Below are positions 17,932 to 26,112 of a stretch of DNA of 50,193 bases, piece by piece. The stretch lies in assembly GCA_016183775.1 (NCBI GenBank), contig JACPDY010000066.1, positions 1 to 50,193 of the forward strand. Direction: 5' to 3'. Numbering within the stretch: the first letter of the stretch is position 1; each line of letters begins with the position of its first letter. Below the pieces are notes generated by a model that saw only the letters and a program-made list of their open reading frames with translations, ran no database searches and was not told the DNA's origin. The position numbers were made by a program, and so were the translations under genes. Source of the stretch: Bacteroidota bacterium. Its GTDB lineage: Bacteria > Bacteroidota > Bacteroidia > JABDFU01.

Positions 17932-17962
17932 TTGGCCATCTACCCACTTTTAGGTATTTTTG
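17932..17962 (+). promoter_or_regulatory. Predicted promoter of the suf operon
   Basis: TTG at 17932-17934 (-33 element), then a 20-base spacer, then TATTTTTG at 17955-17962, an exact TAnnTTTG -7 element of the Bacteroidota housekeeping sigma factor. Transcription would begin near 17967-17970, about 50 bases before the sufA start. Confidence 0.65.
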
Positions 17963-17969
17963 CATTGTG

Positions 17970-17986
17970 TTTAGAATTATTCTAAA
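17970..17986. promoter_or_regulatory. Perfect palindrome at the predicted suf start point, Fur/PerR-type box
   Basis: TTTAGAAT T ATTCTAAA has 8-base perfect arms around one base. The inner TTAGAAT-n-ATTCTAA has the 7-1-7 form of Fur-superfamily boxes (PerR box TTATAATnATTATAA, Fur core GATAATnATTATC). It lies directly after the predicted promoter, where a bound protein would block transcription. Which regulator binds is inference. Confidence 0.6.
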
Positions 17987-18019
17987 TAAGGATACGTAGT
18001 TATATAATTGATAATCAAA

Positions 18020-18346
18020 ATGATAACAGTTTCGGAACAAGCAAAAGAAAGAGCTCTTCATCTCATGAAAGAGGAGAATAAGCCGGGTGATGCATTTATC
18101 CGTGTAGGTGTTGAAGGGGGAGGTTGCTCTGGTCTGTCGTATAAACTGGAGTTTGACAACGTGATCAAAGAAGGCGACCAGGTATTTGAAGATAAAGGAA
18201 TAAAAGTGGTGGTAGATAAAAAAAGTTTCCTGTACCTCGTGGGGACTGAACTGGATTACACAGGCGGACTTAACGGAAAAGGATTTGTATTTATTAATCC
18301 GAATGCAAGCAGGACTTGTGGATGTGGGGAAAGTTTTTCGGTATAA
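18020..18346 (+). CDS. sufA: A-type iron-sulfur carrier protein (SufA/IscA type)
   Basis: 108 residues from the ATG at 18020; a TTG at 18008 is in frame but less likely. A-type carriers take Fe-S clusters from the SufBCD scaffold to target proteins. The three conserved cysteines are present: GGGCSG (C36) and TCGCGES (C100, C102). It opens the suf operon just after the predicted promoter and palindrome. ErpA or IscA naming is possible; the position in a suf operon favours SufA. Confidence 0.93.
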   Translation: MITVSEQAKERALHLMKEENKPGDAFIRVGVEGGGCSGLSYKLEFDNVIKEGDQVFEDKGIKVVVDKKSFLYLVGTELDYTGGLNGKGFVFINPNASRTCGCGESFSV

Positions 18347-18414: not shown

Positions 18415-18609
18415 ATGAGCAAAGTTATTTTTCATACTAAAACAAGTAGGGAGGCTATTGCCGAGAATAGATTATTTGAAAATCTGAAGCTCAGTCCTGT
18501 TGAACGTCTTAAAAAAGCATTTACACTTATGGGGTTGGCTGCTTTGTTTAAAAAGGGGCCTATAAAAATTCCTCAAGGATTGGGGGTTGTATTAAAAAGA
18601 AAAGCGTGA
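18415..18609 (+). CDS. Small partner protein of the following nucleotidyltransferase
   Basis: 64 residues from the ATG at 18415; a GTG two codons earlier is in frame. It has a basic N-terminus, a central LSPVERLKKAFTLMGL and a basic C-terminus. Its stop overlaps the GTG start of the nucleotidyltransferase by four bases (GTGA), so the two are a coupled pair of the kind seen in toxin-antitoxin-like modules. The 67-residue orphan at 2568 has a related central motif. No named domain is recognised. Confidence 0.7.
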   Translation: MSKVIFHTKTSREAIAENRLFENLKLSPVERLKKAFTLMGLAALFKKGPIKIPQGLGVVLKRKA

Positions 18610-19079
18610 ATCTTTTTGACGAAGAAATATTATCGTTCCTTGCCATATTAAACCAATATAATGTAAGGTACATCTTAGTTGGTGGCTTAGCTGTTAACTA
18701 TTATGGTTATTCACGTGCAACCGGCGATGTTGATATTTGGGTAGACGATTCGATTACTAACCGGGAACAATTAGTAAATGCCCTGAAAGCATTTGGAGTG
18801 GAAGGAGCCGAAGCATTTTTAACTTATCCGCTCATGGCCGGATATGCAGAAATACTATTAGACTCGGGAATTTATATTGATTTGATGGCCGATATGGTAT
18901 TGTTAAAACAGGTGGATTTTGCAGAATGCTATCAATTATCAGAAAGTTTTTCAATAAATGAAACCGCATCCGTGAAAGTTTTACATATTAATAAGCTAAT
19001 TGATGAAAAAGAAAGATCAGATAGATCAAAAGATCGTGATGATGCAGAGAAATTGCGAAAGTTGAGAACAAAAAAATAA
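18606..19079 (+). CDS. Nucleotidyltransferase-fold protein (AbiEii/MNT-like)
   Basis: 157 residues starting at a GTG. The N-terminus has the polymerase-beta-type nucleotidyltransferase motif: GGLAVNYYGY followed by ATGDVDIWVDD, with Asp41 and Asp43 as the metal-binding DxD pair. These minimal nucleotidyltransferases resemble AbiEii toxins and MNT antitoxins and often come with a small gene upstream, as here. It ends six bases before sufB, so it is transcribed within the suf operon, but there is no known role for it in Fe-S assembly; insertion of a mobile two-gene module is more likely. Confidence 0.8.
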   Translation: MNLFDEEILSFLAILNQYNVRYILVGGLAVNYYGYSRATGDVDIWVDDSITNREQLVNALKAFGVEGAEAFLTYPLMAGYAEILLDSGIYIDLMADMVLLKQVDFAECYQLSESFSINETASVKVLHINKLIDEKERSDRSKDRDDAEKLRKLRTKK

Positions 19080-19085
19080 TTATCC

Positions 19086-20546
19086 GTGTCAGATTCAAAT
19101 CAAATATTAGAGGAAGTTACCGGCAGCGAGTACAAATACGGTTGGTCGAGTGATATTGATATGGATACAGCTCCCAAAGGGCTGAGTGAGGATATTGTCC
19201 GTTTTATTTCAAAGAAAAAGAATGAACCCGAATGGATGCTTGATTTACGTTTAAAGGCATACCGGTATTGGCTTAAAATGGAAGAGCCCCGGCATTGGGC
19301 ACATATACACTACCCCAAAATTGATTTCCAGGATATTATTTATTACGCGGCGCCAAAGCAAAAAAAAGAATTAAAAAGTCTTGATGAGGTTGACCCTGAA
19401 CTTTTGAAAACATTTGAGAAGCTGGGTATTTCGCTGGAAGAACAAAAGCGCTTAAGCGGGGTTGAAAGTAAAATTGCTGTTGATGCTGTGATTGACAGTA
19501 TATCTGTTAAAACAACTTTCAAAGAAGTGCTTGCTGAAAAGGGAATTATTTTTTGTTCTTTCAGTGAAGCGGTACAGGAACATCCTGAATTGATCAAACG
19601 TTATATGGGTTCCGTAGTTCCCTACAACGATAATTTTTACGCTGCTCTTAACGCGGCTGTATTCAGCGATGGTTCATTCTGTTATATCCCTAAAGGGGTG
19701 CGCTGTCCGATGGAGCTCTCTACCTATTTTCGCATCAATACAGCAGGAACGGGCCAGTTTGAACGCACGCTTATTGTAGCTGATGAAGGAGCGTATGTTA
19801 GTTACCTCGAAGGCTGTACTGCTCCCATGCGTGATGAAAACCAGTTACACGCCGCCGTTGTTGAAATTGTCGCACACAAAGACGCAGAAGTAAAATACAG
19901 TACCGTGCAAAACTGGTACCCCGGTGATAAAGAGGGTAAAGGCGGCATTTTCAACTTTGTTACCAAGCGAGGCATCTGTTTGGGTGATCATTCAAAAATA
20001 TCATGGACGCAGGTGGAAACAGGTTCCGCGATAACATGGAAATATCCATCAGTAATATTAAAAGGAAATAATTCAACCGGCGAATTTTATTCTGTGGCCG
20101 TTACCAATAATATGCAGCAAGCCGATACCGGTACAAAAATGACCCACATCGGAAAAAATACAAAGAGTACCATCATTTCAAAAGGGATATCAGCCGGTAA
20201 AAGCAATAATAGTTATCGTGGGCTTGTTCGTATTATGAAAGGAGCAAGTAACGCGCGCAACTTTTCACAATGCGACTCGTTGTTGATGGGCGATAAGTGC
20301 GGAGCACATACGTTTCCATACATCGAGATAAAAGATAAAACAGCCATCGTTGAACACGAAGCTACCACATCAAAAATCGGTGAGGATCAGCTTTTTTATT
20401 GCAACCAACGCGGCATTGAAACGGAGAAAGCGATCGGATTGATTGTCAATGGATATTGTAAAGAAGTATTGAACCAGTTACCAATGGAGTTTGCTGTGGA
20501 AGCGCAAAAGCTTTTAGCGGTAAGCCTGGAAGGGAGTGTTGGTTGA
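19086..20546 (+). CDS. sufB: Fe-S cluster scaffold protein SufB
   Basis: SufB forms the SufBC2D scaffold on which clusters are built. The 486 residues from the GTG at 19086 cover the full family length. Motifs are [41 protein letters not shown], and near the C-terminus [17 protein letters not shown] (the Cys in QCDS is the essential scaffold cysteine in E. coli) and [12 protein letters not shown]. The start follows the nucleotidyltransferase stop by six bases. Confidence 0.97.
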
Positions 20547-20632: not shown

Positions 20633-21058
20633 ATGGCAACCATAAAACGATTTGAGGATATTGAAGCCTGGCAACAGGCCAGAGTGTTATGTAGTGAAGT
20701 CTACAAAATCACTAATGAAGGTCCGTTTGTTAAGGATTATAAACTGCGTGACCAGATCAACGGATCGTCCGGGTCAGTCATGGATAATATTGCCGAAGGT
20801 TATGAACGGGATGGCCGGAAGGAGTTTATCCAGTTTTTATCGATAGCAAAAGCTTCCTGTGGGGAGGTGAGATCACAATTATACCGGGCTATTGACAGAA
20901 ATTACATTACAAAAGAAAGATTCGAAGACTTATATAATATGTCTAACAAAATAGGTAAAATGATTTCAGGTCTAATGACTTATTTAAAGGGTAGTGATTA
21001 TTCGGGAACAAAATTTAATGAACCAATAGTTCCGTACGCTAACCAACCTGAAACTTGA
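20633..21058 (+). CDS. Four-helix-bundle protein (23S rRNA intervening-sequence protein family)
   Basis: 141 residues: FEDIEAWQQARVL, then SSGSVMDNIAEGYERDGRKEFIQFLSIAKASCGEVRSQLYRA, the recognisable core of the S23/four-helix-bundle family. In some bacteria members are encoded within 23S rRNA intervening sequences; most are stand-alone and of unknown function. Here the gene interrupts the suf operon between sufB and sufC and is bracketed by inverted repeats at 20551-20575 and 21045-21076. Its last residues (NQPET) and stop codon are read from the right repeat. This fits a cassette inserted together with its repeats. Confidence 0.9.
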   Translation: MATIKRFEDIEAWQQARVLCSEVYKITNEGPFVKDYKLRDQINGSSGSVMDNIAEGYERDGRKEFIQFLSIAKASCGEVRSQLYRAIDRNYITKERFEDLYNMSNKIGKMISGLMTYLKGSDYSGTKFNEPIVPYANQPET

Positions 21059-21076
21059 AACCTGAAACTTGAAACC
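21045..21076. repeat. GTTTCA-word inverted repeat, right of the four-helix-bundle gene
   Basis: Four words, AACCTGAAACTTG twice over, reading as the complement of the left repeat. It supplies the end of the four-helix-bundle gene and stops five bases before the sufC ATG. Confidence 0.85.
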
Positions 21077-21080
21077 AATT

Positions 21081-21842
21081 ATGTTAAGCATAAAAAATCT
21101 GAAAGCCGGTATTGAAGGAAAGGAAATCCTGAAAGGGATTAACCTGGAAGTGAAGCCCGGTGAAGTTCATGCCATCATGGGTCCTAATGGCTCAGGCAAA
21201 AGTACATTGAGTAATGTGTTAGCCGGCCGCGAGAATTATGTTGTAACGGAAGGCGAAATAAAATTTAAGGGAAAAGATCTCCTCGAATTTTCTCCTGAAG
21301 ACCGCGCACGCGAAGGATTGTTTCTTGCATTCCAATATCCTGTGGAAATTCCAGGAGTTAGCAATGTTAATTTTTTAAAAACAGCTATAGCTGAGATCCG
21401 TCAATACAAAGGACTCCCGCCGTTGGAAGCAAAAGACTTTTTGAAATTGTTAAAAGAAAAACAAGCTTTGGTTGAATTACAAGGCACGCTCGCTAATCGT
21501 TCTGTGAATGAAGGATTTTCCGGTGGCGAAAAAAAACGAAATGAAATTTTTCAAATGGCAATGTTAGAGCCAACGCTTGCTGTGCTTGATGAAACTGATT
21601 CCGGGCTTGACATTGATGCGCTTCGTATTGTTGCCAATGGTGTAAATAAGCTACGTTCAAAAGACAGGTCGTTTATTGTCATTACTCACTACCAGCGCTT
21701 ACTTGAATATATAATCCCCGATTTTGTGCATGTATTATATAATGGACGCATTGTAAAATCAGGCACAAAAGAATTAGCATTGGAACTTGAAGAAAAGGGA
21801 TATGATTGGATCAAAGACCTTAGCCCTGTTCTCCCCTCTTGA
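21081..21842 (+). CDS. sufC: Fe-S assembly ATPase SufC
   Basis: SufC is the ABC-type ATPase of the SufBCD scaffold. 253 residues from the ATG at 21081; an in-frame TTG at 21069 lies inside the repeat and is unlikely. Walker A is GPNGSGKST (34-42), signature FSGGEKKR, Walker [13 protein letters not shown], and the His of the switch is in VITHYQR. The C-terminal LSPVLPS and stop are read from the start of the next hairpin repeat (21831 onward), so the tail may be repeat-derived. Confidence 0.97.
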
Positions 21843-21914: not shown

Positions 21915-23246
21915 ATGAACACAACAGCAGAAAAAATAAAAGCAGAAGATAAATTGGCAGTGGCGTTCGAAAAGCAACGGCCACAACTGCCTGGCAATGC
22001 TGCATTACAGGATATCCGTCAAAAGGCGATAAACGCATTTCTTGATAGGGGGATCCCTAATCGTAAAAGCGAAGAGTATAAATATTCCAATCCTGAAAAG
22101 TTATTTAAAGCAGACTATTTGATCTTAACTGCTGCACGGAATACTACGCTAACGGCAGATTCTGTCAAGCAATTCGAGATTGGGGGTATCAGTGACAACC
22201 ATATTGTATTGCTGAATGGCTTTTACTCAAAACAATTATCATCTGTAACTAAATTGCCCAAAGGAGTTATTGTTACTGATCTTGCGGGTGCCTTTTTAAA
22301 CCATCCGGATTTAATAGAAGACCATTTTTCAAAATATGCTGATGTAAATACGGATTCTTTCATTGCTTTAAACACATCTTTTGCTTCAGACGGATTATTT
22401 ATTTATGTGCCCGATAAAGTTGTAATGGAGCACCCGCTGCACATCATTAATATTGTTTTTGTAAAAGAAGCCGCTTTGATTCAGCCGCGAAATTTATTTA
22501 TTGTTGGCAAAAACGCTGAAGTAAAAATTGTTGAATCGTTTAATACACATCAGCTGAATGTAAAAACGACTGTCAATGCGGTTACAGAAGTCAATGTGGC
22601 CGAAAATGCAAAGGTCCAATACTACAAGCTTCAGAATAATTGTGAAAATATTTACCTGGTCAATACAACACAAGTTCATCAACAGGCCAGGTCACATTTC
22701 GATACAAATACGGTTACTTTAAATGGTGAATGGGTACGCAATAATTTGAATATAGTTGCAGACGCAGAGAACTGTGAAACGCACCTCAATGGATTATTCA
22801 TTACAAGGGATAATCAGCACGTGGATAACCATACATTGGTTGATCACCAAAAGCCGAATTGTGAAAGCATCCAGTTGTACAAAGGGATTCTTGATAACAA
22901 GTCCACGGGCGTATTTAATGGGAAAATTTACGTTCGTCGGGATGCGCAGAAAATAAATGCGTACCAAAGCTCTAAAAATATTTTGCTGAGTGATGACGCA
23001 ACGATCAATACTAAGCCTCAGTTGGAAATATATGCCAATGACGTAAAATGCTCGCATGGTTCATCAACCGGGCATTTGAATGAAGATGCCTTATTTTATC
23101 TTCGCTCACGGGGATTGGGAACAGAAAGCGCCAGGCGGATGTTGTTGTATGCTTTTGCGGCTGATGCTATAAATACTATACGTATTGAGCCGTTGAGAGT
23201 GTATGTGGATGCGTTGATTGAGAAAAGATTAAGTAATCCAAAATAA
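21915..23246 (+). CDS. sufD: Fe-S assembly protein SufD
   Basis: SufD is the SufB paralogue of the SufBC2D scaffold. 443 residues: a helical N-terminal part with GIPNRKSEEYKYSNPEKLF, then the beta-helix core, then the conserved C-terminal block LEIYANDVKCSHGSSTGHLNEDALFYLRSRG. The His and Cys of KCSHGS are typical. The ATG follows the sufC hairpin. Confidence 0.96.
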   Translation: MNTTAEKIKAEDKLAVAFEKQRPQLPGNAALQDIRQKAINAFLDRGIPNRKSEEYKYSNPEKLFKADYLILTAARNTTLTADSVKQFEIGGISDNHIVLLNGFYSKQLSSVTKLPKGVIVTDLAGAFLNHPDLIEDHFSKYADVNTDSFIALNTSFASDGLFIYVPDKVVMEHPLHIINIVFVKEAALIQPRNLFIVGKNAEVKIVESFNTHQLNVKTTVNAVTEVNVAENAKVQYYKLQNNCENIYLVNTTQVHQQARSHFDTNTVTLNGEWVRNNLNIVADAENCETHLNGLFITRDNQHVDNHTLVDHQKPNCESIQLYKGILDNKSTGVFNGKIYVRRDAQKINAYQSSKNILLSDDATINTKPQLEIYANDVKCSHGSSTGHLNEDALFYLRSRGLGTESARRMLLYAFAADAINTIRIEPLRVYVDALIEKRLSNPK

Positions 23247-23396: not shown

Positions 23397-24668
23397 ATGA
23401 AAACGGCAGTAGAACATAAAATGAAATTTGATCAGGCGAAAATTCGTTCGGACTTTCCTATTCTATCGCGCGAGGTTAATAACAAGCCACTTATTTATTT
23501 CGACAGTGCTGCCACTGCCCAAAAACCACAAGTGGTAATTGACGCATTAAAAAAATATTATGAGTACGATAATGCCAATATTCATCGCGGCGTACACCGT
23601 TTGAGCCAGGATATTACCATTGAATATGAAGCAGCCCGTGTAACTATTCAAAAGCATTTGAATGCTGAATTTGTACATGAAATAATATTTACCAAAGGAA
23701 CTACGGAATCTATCAGCCTTGTCGCCGCATCATTCGGAAAAAAATTTATTAAAGCCGGAGATGAGATCATTGTGAGTGAAATGGAGCACCATAGCAATAT
23801 TTTGCCCTGGCAGTTATTGTGTGAAGAAAAAGGTGTAACATTAAAAGTGATTCCCATCAATGATAAGGGGGAACTTATTTTGGAAGAGTTTAAAAAAATG
23901 TTGAACTCCAAAACCAAAATGGTTGCTGTAACCCACGTATCAAATACTCTAGGTACAATAAACCCTGTAAAAGAAATAGTTCGCCTTGTGCGTGAGATGA
24001 ACCCTTCCCAACGGGGAGGGCTGGGTGGAGCTTGTATTCTGATAGATGGAGCGCAGGCTGTACCACACATGAACGTTGACGTACAGGGCCTTGATTGTGA
24101 CTTTTATTGTTTCAGCGGGCATAAGGTTTACGGGCCAACAGGTGTTGGTATATTATACGGGAAAGAAAAATGGCTTAATGATATGCCTCCATACCAGGGT
24201 GGGGGAGGAACAATTAAAACTGTAACATTCGCTAAAACAACCTATGCCGACCTGCCTTTAAAATTTGAAGCAGGAACTCCTCATATTGAAGGGGGAGTTG
24301 GTTTGGCTGTCGCGATTAATTATATTGATAATATTGGTTTGGATAATATTGCTGCTTATGAGCATGGATTGTTGGAATATGCGACCGAAAGGTTAATGCA
24401 TATAAGCGGCTTGCGGATCATCGGGAATGCAAAAAGTAAAGCAAGTGTTATCTCATTTGTAATTGATGGATTACATCCCTTGGATATCGGAACAATATTG
24501 GATAAGCAGGGAATAGCTGTTCGTACAGGCCACCACTGCACACAGCCGTTGATGGAGCACTATGGTATTCCCGGAACGATCCGTGCTTCTTTCGCGTTTT
24601 ATAATACAAAGGAAGAAATAGATAAATTGGCAGAAGGAATAGAGAAAGCGATAAAGATGTTAAAGTAA
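23397..24668 (+). CDS. sufS: Cysteine desulfurase SufS
   Basis: SufS takes sulfur from L-cysteine with PLP and passes it to SufE. 423 residues: FDSAATAQKP, MEHHSNILPWQ, DGAQAVPHM, the PLP lysine in SGHKVYGPTG (K243) and the persulfide-forming cysteine in RTGHHCTQP (C381). The family is usually about 405-415 residues. The excess includes about ten residues at 202-211 (NPSQRGGLGG), placed just before the ILIDGAQ strand and encoded by an in-frame palindromic repeat at 24002-24029. The insert sits in a surface turn of known structures and need not abolish activity. The start could also be MKFDQ eight codons in. Confidence 0.95.
   Translation: MKTAVEHKMKFDQAKIRSDFPILSREVNNKPLIYFDSAATAQKPQVVIDALKKYYEYDNANIHRGVHRLSQDITIEYEAARVTIQKHLNAEFVHEIIFTKGTTESISLVAASFGKKFIKAGDEIIVSEMEHHSNILPWQLLCEEKGVTLKVIPINDKGELILEEFKKMLNSKTKMVAVTHVSNTLGTINPVKEIVRLVREMNPSQRGGLGGACILIDGAQAVPHMNVDVQGLDCDFYCFSGHKVYGPTGVGILYGKEKWLNDMPPYQGGGGTIKTVTFAKTTYADLPLKFEAGTPHIEGGVGLAVAINYIDNIGLDNIAAYEHGLLEYATERLMHISGLRIIGNAKSKASVISFVIDGLHPLDIGTILDKQGIAVRTGHHCTQPLMEHYGIPGTIRASFAFYNTKEEIDKLAEGIEKAIKMLK
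24002..24029. repeat. Palindromic repeat inserted in frame in sufS
   Basis: CCCTTCCC AAC GGGGAGGG, then CTGGGTGGA. It is translated as PSQRGGLGG, at a point where SufS relatives have only a short turn. Confidence 0.7.
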
Positions 24669-24725: not shown

Positions 24726-25148
24726 ATGAAAATTGAAGAAATTGAACGGGAAATAATTGAAGAATTCGAATTGTTTGAAAACAATTGGGAAGGAAAATAC
24801 GAACATTTAATTGAGCTGGGAAAATCCTTACCATTGATTGATGCAAAATATAAAACAGAAGATAAGCTTATTAAGGGATGTCAAAGCAGAGTCTGGCTTC
24901 ATTCAGAATTGAAAAATGGGAAAGTAATTTACACGGCCGACAGTGATGCGATCATTACAAAAGGGTTGGTAGCATTGATTGTTAGAGTATTAGCAGATCA
25001 CACTCCTGATGAGATTATTGACGCGAAAATGGATTTCATTGATAAGATCGGATTAAAAGAACATTTGTCACCAACGCGTGCGAATGGTTTGGTGAGTATG
25101 ATCAAACAAATGAAAATGGATGCTCTCGCCTTTAAGACGAGAGGTTAA
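24726..25148 (+). CDS. sufE: Sulfur acceptor protein SufE
   Basis: SufE accepts persulfide sulfur from SufS and activates it. 140 residues with the acceptor cysteine in IKGCQSRVW (C52) and the family stretch ITKGLVALIVRVL. The position directly after sufS is the usual one. Confidence 0.95.
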   Translation: MKIEEIEREIIEEFELFENNWEGKYEHLIELGKSLPLIDAKYKTEDKLIKGCQSRVWLHSELKNGKVIYTADSDAIITKGLVALIVRVLADHTPDEIIDAKMDFIDKIGLKEHLSPTRANGLVSMIKQMKMDALAFKTRG

Positions 25149-25217: not shown

Positions 25218-25547
25218 ATGGGTGCAATAATTATATCAAAAAACACAGAGCTGACTCAAAGGGTCATCGACATGATTAAAACGTGCTATGATCCGGAGAT
25301 ACCTGTTGATATATGGGAACTCGGATTGATATACGAGATCAGGCTTGATGATGAAAATAACCTCGAAGTAAAAATGACATTAACTTCACCATCATGTCCG
25401 GTCGCAGAAACGCTGCCGCCCGAAGTTGAACAAAAATTAAGAGGAGTTGAAGGAATTAAATCAGCAAAAATTGAACTTACGTTTGAGCCGCCCTGGGATA
25501 AAAGCATGATGACCGAGGTGGCGCAGGTGGAGCTAGGGTTTATGTAA
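25218..25547 (+). CDS. sufT: SUF-associated DUF59/MIP18-family protein (SufT type)
   Basis: 109 residues. The family motif DPEIPVDIWELGLIY (25-39) and TSPSCP with Cys60 are intact. Proteins of this family help mature Fe-S proteins, and SufT is the member encoded in suf operons. PaaD-like proteins have an extra C-terminal zinc motif that is absent here. Confidence 0.9.
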   Translation: MGAIIISKNTELTQRVIDMIKTCYDPEIPVDIWELGLIYEIRLDDENNLEVKMTLTSPSCPVAETLPPEVEQKLRGVEGIKSAKIELTFEPPWDKSMMTEVAQVELGFM

Positions 25548-25553
25548 GGCAGA

Positions 25554-25612
25554 TATGAGATGTGAGATATGAGTATTGAGACTCTCATATCTCATATTTC
25601 AATACTCACATC
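25554..25612. repeat. GAGATATGAG-word palindromic repeat before the DUF2480 gene
   Basis: GATGTGAG (25559-25566) pairs with CTCACATC (25605-25612), and ATATGAG and AGTATTGA words pair within. It ends two bases before the next ATG. Confidence 0.8.
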
Positions 25613-25614
25613 CA

Positions 25615-26112
25615 ATGATAGTAAATAAAGTAGCGCAAAGCGGCCTGGTTGAGTTTAACCTGGAGGATCATTATCCTGAAGGAGAACGCGTGTTGCTGGA
25701 CGTGAAAGAACATTTGTTCCAGGGTTTGATATTAAGAGAAAAGGAGTTCCGCGAGTTTGTGAAAAATGAAGATTGGAGCAAATACAGGGATAAATATGTA
25801 GCTATTGTTTGTTCGGCGGATGCCATAGTTCCAACCTGGGCGTATATGCTGCTGGTAACAGTTATAGAGCCTTTTGCAAAAAAAGTAGTGTTCGGTGATC
25901 TGAAAACGCTGGAAACAATTTTATATAACGAAGCGCTTTCTAAAATAAACCCTGCTGATTATGCCGATCAACGAATAGTTATTAAAGGCTGCAGCAACCT
26001 GCCTGTGCCGGAATCAGCTTATGTGGAAATTACCCGCATCCTTCGTCCGGTTGCCAAAAGCATTATGTATGGTGAGCCGTGTTCAACAGTCCCACTTTAT
26101 AAAAAGAAATAA
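25615..26112 (+). CDS. DUF2480 family protein
   Basis: 165 residues from the ATG at 25615; an upstream in-frame start would lie inside the repeat. The sequence (IVNKVAQSGLVEFNLEDHYP, IVCSADAIVPTWAYM, IKGCSNLPVPESAYVEI) matches the DUF2480 family, found in Bacteroidota and often next to suf genes, so a role around Fe-S assembly is suspected but not shown. Two conserved-looking cysteines occur (CSAD, GCSN). Confidence 0.85.
   Translation: MIVNKVAQSGLVEFNLEDHYPEGERVLLDVKEHLFQGLILREKEFREFVKNEDWSKYRDKYVAIVCSADAIVPTWAYMLLVTVIEPFAKKVVFGDLKTLETILYNEALSKINPADYADQRIVIKGCSNLPVPESAYVEITRILRPVAKSIMYGEPCSTVPLYKKK

Follow-up and report, generated by a model that had tools for sequence, protein, structure and literature searches.

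In Escherichia coli, sufABCDSE is repressed by Fur, with IscR, OxyR and IHF also acting on the operon. IscR, SufR and RisR are known suf regulators. Operators of the 7-1-7/8-1-8 form are common to PerR and Fur, and the Irr box (ICE) of alphaproteobacteria has the sequence TTTAGAAnnnTTCTAAA. Control of suf in Bacteroidota is poorly described. A Fur box, ATTTAGAATTATTCTAAAT, has been published for Riemerella anatipestifer (PMC5609570). There, Fur shifted four promoters by EMSA, suf not being among them; suf was raised under iron restriction in both the wild type and the delta-fur mutant (Table 3), the Fur genes of Tables 4-5 do not include suf, and the hmu genes also remain iron-responsive in delta-fur (PMC5609570). 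Such behavior of suf and hmu points either to a further iron input in R. anatipestifer or to a mutant that was not clean.

We analyzed a 50,193-nucleotide stretch of Bacteroidota DNA (the window) that carries a suf operon on its forward strand. The promoter is of the Bacteroidota type, with TTG (17932-17934) as the -33 element and, after a spacing of 20 bases, TATTTTTG (17955-17962) as the -7 element, for which the consensus is TAnnTTTG; among 53 aligned suf promoters, TTTG is kept about 20 bp before TAnnTTTG. A predicted Fur box, TTTAGAATTATTCTAAA, forms a perfect palindrome at the predicted start point (17970-17986) and is identified by its conservation and by the published Fur box. The sequence-only reading had correctly described this promoter and recognized a perfect palindrome of the Fur-family type beside it, but had placed the palindrome immediately after TATTTTTG, from which it is separated by the 7 bases cattgtg, and had given its symmetry as 7-1-7 when the actual extent is 8-1-8. 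The TAA that flanks the box (17987-17989) is likewise conserved, as seen in the alignment of relatives and in motif enrichment, giving the flank-extended motif TTTAGAWTNAWTCTAAATAA (17970-17989). Moreover, a proposed second operator, TACC-N8-GGTA (TACCCACTTTTAGGTA, 17941-17956), is marked by its conserved exact spacing, and the right half of this dyad overlaps the -7 element (GGTATTTTTG).

Downstream of these elements lies sufA (18020-18346), an A-type Fe-S carrier of the HesB/IscA family (PF01521, TIGR00049), for which the ATG at 18020 was chosen as the start by means of the conserved MITVSE. It is followed by sufB (19086-20546; TIGR01980, PRK11814), a sufC-like ABC ATPase (21069-21842; PF00005) placed between sufB and sufD, sufD itself (21915-23246; PF01458/PF19295), the cysteine desulfurase sufS (23397-24668; PF00266), sufE (24726-25148; PF02657), a SUF-associated PF01883 protein (25218-25547; Pfam) and a DUF2480 protein (25576-26112; PF10652), with which the operon probably ends. 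All of these genes are on the forward strand. One of two additional genes inside the operon (18606-19079) encodes a small protein with no Pfam match, and the other (20633-21058) a 23S-intervening-sequence protein, a four-helix bundle. A four-helix bundle gene is also listed between the SufA and SufB locus numbers of R. anatipestifer (PMC5609570).

The exact palindrome has one match in the 50-kb window, and three matches are found when up to 3 mismatches are allowed, compared with 0.99 expected from shuffles. The 15-mer TTAGAATNATTCTAA is present as a single exact copy in the 4.54-Mb genome, and with up to 2 mismatches it shows no genome-wide enrichment there (35 matches versus 34 for the reversed control); as a result, the flank-extended motif was adopted for our searches. 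TTTAGAWTNAWTCTAAATAA yields 5 strand matches in the same genome versus 1 for the control, and 197 matches (103 forward and 94 reverse) in 60 genomes versus 5 for the reversed control, at least one match being present in 49 of the 60. Loss of the palindrome in relatives, which the sequence-only reading had named as counting against it, is not what we observe: the box stays in the same position, just after TAnnTTTG, across many families. Of 54 genomes of the class for which the sufA upstream region was available, 35 have the core there with no more than 2 mismatches and 19 have no suf box. The core also precedes sufA at 37 of 80 named loci retrieved with SufA, versus 42 of 1600 dinucleotide shuffles. 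Of 63 boxed promoters obtained from 110 upstream regions, 53 have TAnnTTTG within 60 bp upstream of the box, and in most of these 53, 7-8 or 14-19 bp separate TAnnTTTG from TTAGA. Several of the box-less loci (of the Pedobacter and Mucilaginibacter types) seem to have another gene immediately before sufA. Conservation upstream of sufA, together with enrichment of the extended motif, indicates from these comparisons that the palindrome is a genuine element and not a product of chance.

The Fur box itself is already known: the window sequence agrees with the published ATTTAGAATTATTCTAAAT in 18 of 19 bases (PMC5609570). That report lists no box for R. anatipestifer suf, whereas suf is boxed here in many families, and the only Riemerella locus in our set, from R. 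columbipharyngis (L225), has sufA without an upstream box. Given this box-less locus, the R. anatipestifer data are not a direct test of the suf box. Within the window genome, four places carry the box, namely suf, an imelysin-type DUF4856 operon, an alternative complex III operon, and the gene for an orphan response regulator. Box neighbors in relatives include HmuY-type proteins, FeoA/FeoB, TonB receptors, haem oxygenase, FTR1, IscU, ApbC and sufB, along with some that have no evident link to iron. These names come from reading translated ORFs, and Pfam scans of 10 such proteins upheld the regulators, the cytochrome, the haem oxygenase and DUF4856; the HmuY assignment scored above the cut-off for L112 and L143 and below it for L103, and the scan of L141 returned no match. 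The set overlaps with the reported R. anatipestifer Fur targets, which include HmuY/HmuR, TonB receptors and an imelysin (PMC5609570).

Only one Fur-family protein is encoded in the genome (PF01475, 92.3 bits, above the cut-off), and it is very likely that this protein reads the box, as judged from sequence comparison. The protein falls below every curated equivalog cut-off for Fur, PerR, Zur and Irr, the top Fur models giving 71.9 of 220 bits and 66.9 of 146 bits and the Irr models about 30 of 150-170 bits, so that we regard it as a divergent member of the family. Irr was rejected as the reader on this basis; although the Irr box TTTAGAAnnnTTCTAAA is nearly identical as DNA to the box in the window, the protein here misses every Irr cut-off and goes with targets of the Fur type. 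When 296 genomes were compared, 226 of the 279 with a strong Fur match carried the box, as did 2 of the 17 that lack Fur or possess only a weak paralogue, strong and weak being divided at E ~1e-15, a threshold set after the values were seen (Fisher 6.5e-9, with relatedness ignored). Among these genomes, G089 has one box site and only a weak Fur paralogue. Another genome, G033 (99% complete; L014, L302), has the suf box, the dyad and the response regulator but no Fur-family match, perhaps implying either a missing contig or a different reader of the box. At L005 (1064-1411), a small STAS-domain-like ORF comes after the fur gene, and a RelA/SpoT-like gene adjoins, both named by reading.

Were the box a PerR site, suf would answer peroxide and not iron. 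The form of the palindrome fits PerR as well as Fur, and the alignment of the Fur-like protein with Bacillus subtilis PerR is of much the same quality as its alignment with Fur proteins. Relative to B. subtilis PerR, however, the histidines are kept while Glu stands at the positions of both Asp85 and Asp104, Glu111 being the residue at the latter. These replacements hold in all 29 of the aligned orthologues (29 proteins from 31 loci), in which the metal-ligand positions of the regulatory site, H42, E90, H98, H100 and E111, are invariant. In addition, the co-targets of the box are iron and haem genes, and weaker Fur-family paralogues do not follow the box, which is absent from 9 of the 10 genomes that have only these. 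A PerR site is therefore very unlikely. Control by iron through Fur is favored, given the iron and haem co-targets, the Glu at the PerR Asp104 position and the essentially identical published box of R. anatipestifer (PMC5609570). The sequence-only reading had offered both iron and peroxide as options for a Fur-family site, and only its iron/Fur side is borne out by the co-targets, Glu111 and that box.

In contrast to its place at suf, the box before the alternative complex III operon lies upstream of the -7 element. This operon opens with a multihaem cytochrome c gene, followed by one for an ActB-like protein (named by reading), and its box is found in 18 genomes (L096 plus 17 loci; contig C14, 85917, in the window genome). 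A -7 element is within reach in 16 of the 18 promoters; the box center precedes it by 65-66 bp in 10, by 54-55 bp in 4 and by 44 bp in 1, and in the remaining promoter the center is 32 bp before one -7 element and 54 bp before a second. The distances step by 11 bp, which suggests action from one helix face in the manner of an activator, unlike the situation at suf. It thus looks as if Fur may activate the haem- and Fe-S-rich alternative complex III. A literature search returned nothing on Fur control of complex III, which does not prove that no such report exists.

As in E. coli, suf would here be under direct Fur control from an operator on the promoter, although the E. coli Fur box has a different sequence and the partner that we propose in this system is a response regulator with three conserved cysteines. 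The location of the box at the predicted start point makes it likely that Fur represses suf. The dyad would bring a second suf-directed layer beside Fur, as IscR, SufR and RisR do elsewhere, but these belong to protein families unrelated to our candidate. TACC-N8-GGTA of this kind occurs in the window only at 17941-17956. Among the 53 boxed suf promoters with a -7 element, 30 have the exact N8 spacing, whereas other spacings occur 0 times, or once for N12; the dyad is seen in 1 of 21 boxed promoters with a -7 element that do not belong to suf. The composite of dyad, -7 element and TTAGA is found in 60 of 296 genomes, and 27 of 30 composite loci that were fetched lie directly before sufA. The reversed composite gives about 11 matches, so that part of the 60 may have arisen by chance. 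Both the box and the dyad are present at suf in Salibacter halophilus (L206), a cultured relative. We consider with high confidence, on the strength of this conservation, that the dyad is a real operator.

At other promoters some 21-23 nt separate the dyad from the -7 element downstream of it, an example being the DUF4856 promoter of the window genome. Its position over the core promoter at suf suggests a repressor-like role, and its upstream position suggests that the regulator may activate the DUF4856 and regulator promoters from about -40. These arrangements also bear on whether the palindrome and dyad might be RNA or promoter-strength features of suf rather than operators. Both are predicted sites close to the transcription start, as such features would be. 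The box, however, accompanies numerous unrelated iron genes, where it appears in either orientation and also in upstream positions, and the dyad recurs upstream of -33 in other promoters, making this explanation highly improbable.

The response regulator gene of the window genome has its own Fur box. Its product combines a PF00072 receiver with a PF00196 LuxR helix-turn-helix domain, both above cut-off, and therefore has the same domain order as NarL/FixJ (LuxR-type) regulators. NarL-type regulators bind 7-2-7 heptamer sites, and TACC-N8-GGTA is compatible with inverted heptamers of the NarL/FixJ type that are separated by a 2-bp gap. In contrast to NarL/FixJ, the protein has three invariant cysteines, an altered acidic pocket and a Fur box at its own gene. 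In a first set of orthologues (30 loci), all three cysteines are invariant in 28 of 28 proteins, and Asp58 is kept in 26 and replaced by Asn in 2. A second, overlapping set, for which proteins were obtained for 56 of 63 loci, has the triad in 33 of 34 orthologues, the exception (G032) having lost the Asp too, compared with 0 of 22 ordinary paralogues. The three cysteine columns are retained throughout a wider set of 59 orthologues (from 75 loci), in which a Fur box lies within 200 bp upstream of the regulator gene in 43 cases, versus 1.4% of shuffles, and exact dyads are present in 4 promoters, versus 0.17% of shuffles.

Presence of the regulator also tracks the dyad. When up to 1 mismatch is allowed, in-register suf dyads are present in 20 genomes; a verified three-cysteine protein is encoded in 19 of them and a protein called by score in the other (G045). 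They are found in 0 of 23 genomes that lack the regulator, a group in which G059 has a single out-of-register dyad and G005 is just 56% complete. In the set of 296 genomes, with presence called at E 1e-50, 55 of the 60 composites fall in the 140 genomes with the regulator and 5 in the 156 without it (Fisher p 8.7e-16, relatedness ignored); 85 of the 140 have no exact composite. At E 1e-60 the regulator extends over 30 families, 16 of which also have the composite. Family f45 (3 genomes) has no Fur-family match, and yet all three genomes have an exact dyad, with differing inner bases, before the regulator gene, 21-23 nt upstream of TAnnTTTG (spacing judged by eye); in L175, the one genome of this family examined, no dyad precedes sufA. 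Co-occurrence and the Fur-less family both lead us to propose that the three-cysteine regulator reads the dyad, an assignment that we judge fairly probable from these sequence patterns.

Two other candidates for this role deserve comment. Rrf2 proteins govern suf and isc in other bacteria, and the window genome itself encodes one Rrf2 protein, so that an IscR-type reader might be imagined. Exact suf dyads, however, are present in G024, G033 and G034, none of which has a PF02082 match, and in G050, where the match is below cut-off; an Rrf2 protein is thus missing from genomes that possess the dyad. As a result, Rrf2/IscR was rejected as a common reader, and we regard it as quite improbable. Operators of the MerR type sit between the promoter elements, where the suf dyad is also located, and the MerR-like iron regulator MliR, whose operators would lie between -33 and -7, could be considered for this reason. 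In Bizionia argentinensis, iron and Fe-S assembly genes are expressed at a lower level when mliR is deleted (PMC9478572). The dyad of other promoters, however, which stands about 21-23 nt before the -7 element, is unlike MerR operators. Moreover, the 7-2-7 heptamer form suits NarL-type regulators, and MliR, although kept as a rival, is an unlikely reader of the dyad.

With the three-cysteine regulator as the preferred reader of the dyad, a two-operator, iron-controlled suf promoter that employs this protein and Fur seems rather probable from the arrangement of sites. In such a scheme, metal-loaded Fur bound at the start point would block initiation when iron is plentiful, keeping suf expression low. 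When iron is short, Fur would leave suf, which would then be made, and would also leave the regulator gene. The regulator would then act through the dyad, probably trimming suf output in response to redox or Fe-S status. Sequence evidence gives good support to the Fur step. The sign of the regulator's effect at suf is suggested to be repression by its position over the -7 element, and the signal that it senses, putatively Fe-S status, is guessed from its cysteines. More tentatively, and with somewhat less than even expectation, many members of the class might share a two-layer suf circuit in which a counterpart of IscR is built on a response-regulator scaffold with cysteine-based sensing. This wider proposal includes the cysteines acting as metal, Fe-S or thiol ligands and not within an ordinary phosphorelay alone, and a Fur-controlled regulator that binds TACC-N8-GGTA at suf and at other iron promoters.

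Our literature searches did not find the broad placement of the box at suf, the dyad or the candidate regulator, nor anything on this regulator or on suf control in Bacteroidetes, which does not prove absence. The present analysis supplies a concrete, widely conserved candidate Fur operator for suf and names one Fur protein as its expected binder. It also defines a directly testable, undescribed family of regulators having three invariant cysteines, a Fur box of their own and a dyad of their own; if the cysteines hold a cluster, a response regulator would have been converted into an Fe-S sensor. Viral contigs contain only distant relatives of the regulator. A second three-cysteine LuxR-type regulator, with no Fur box, is encoded elsewhere in the window genome (G000, contig C98, 43757-44398; L347) and could be an alternative reader of the dyad.
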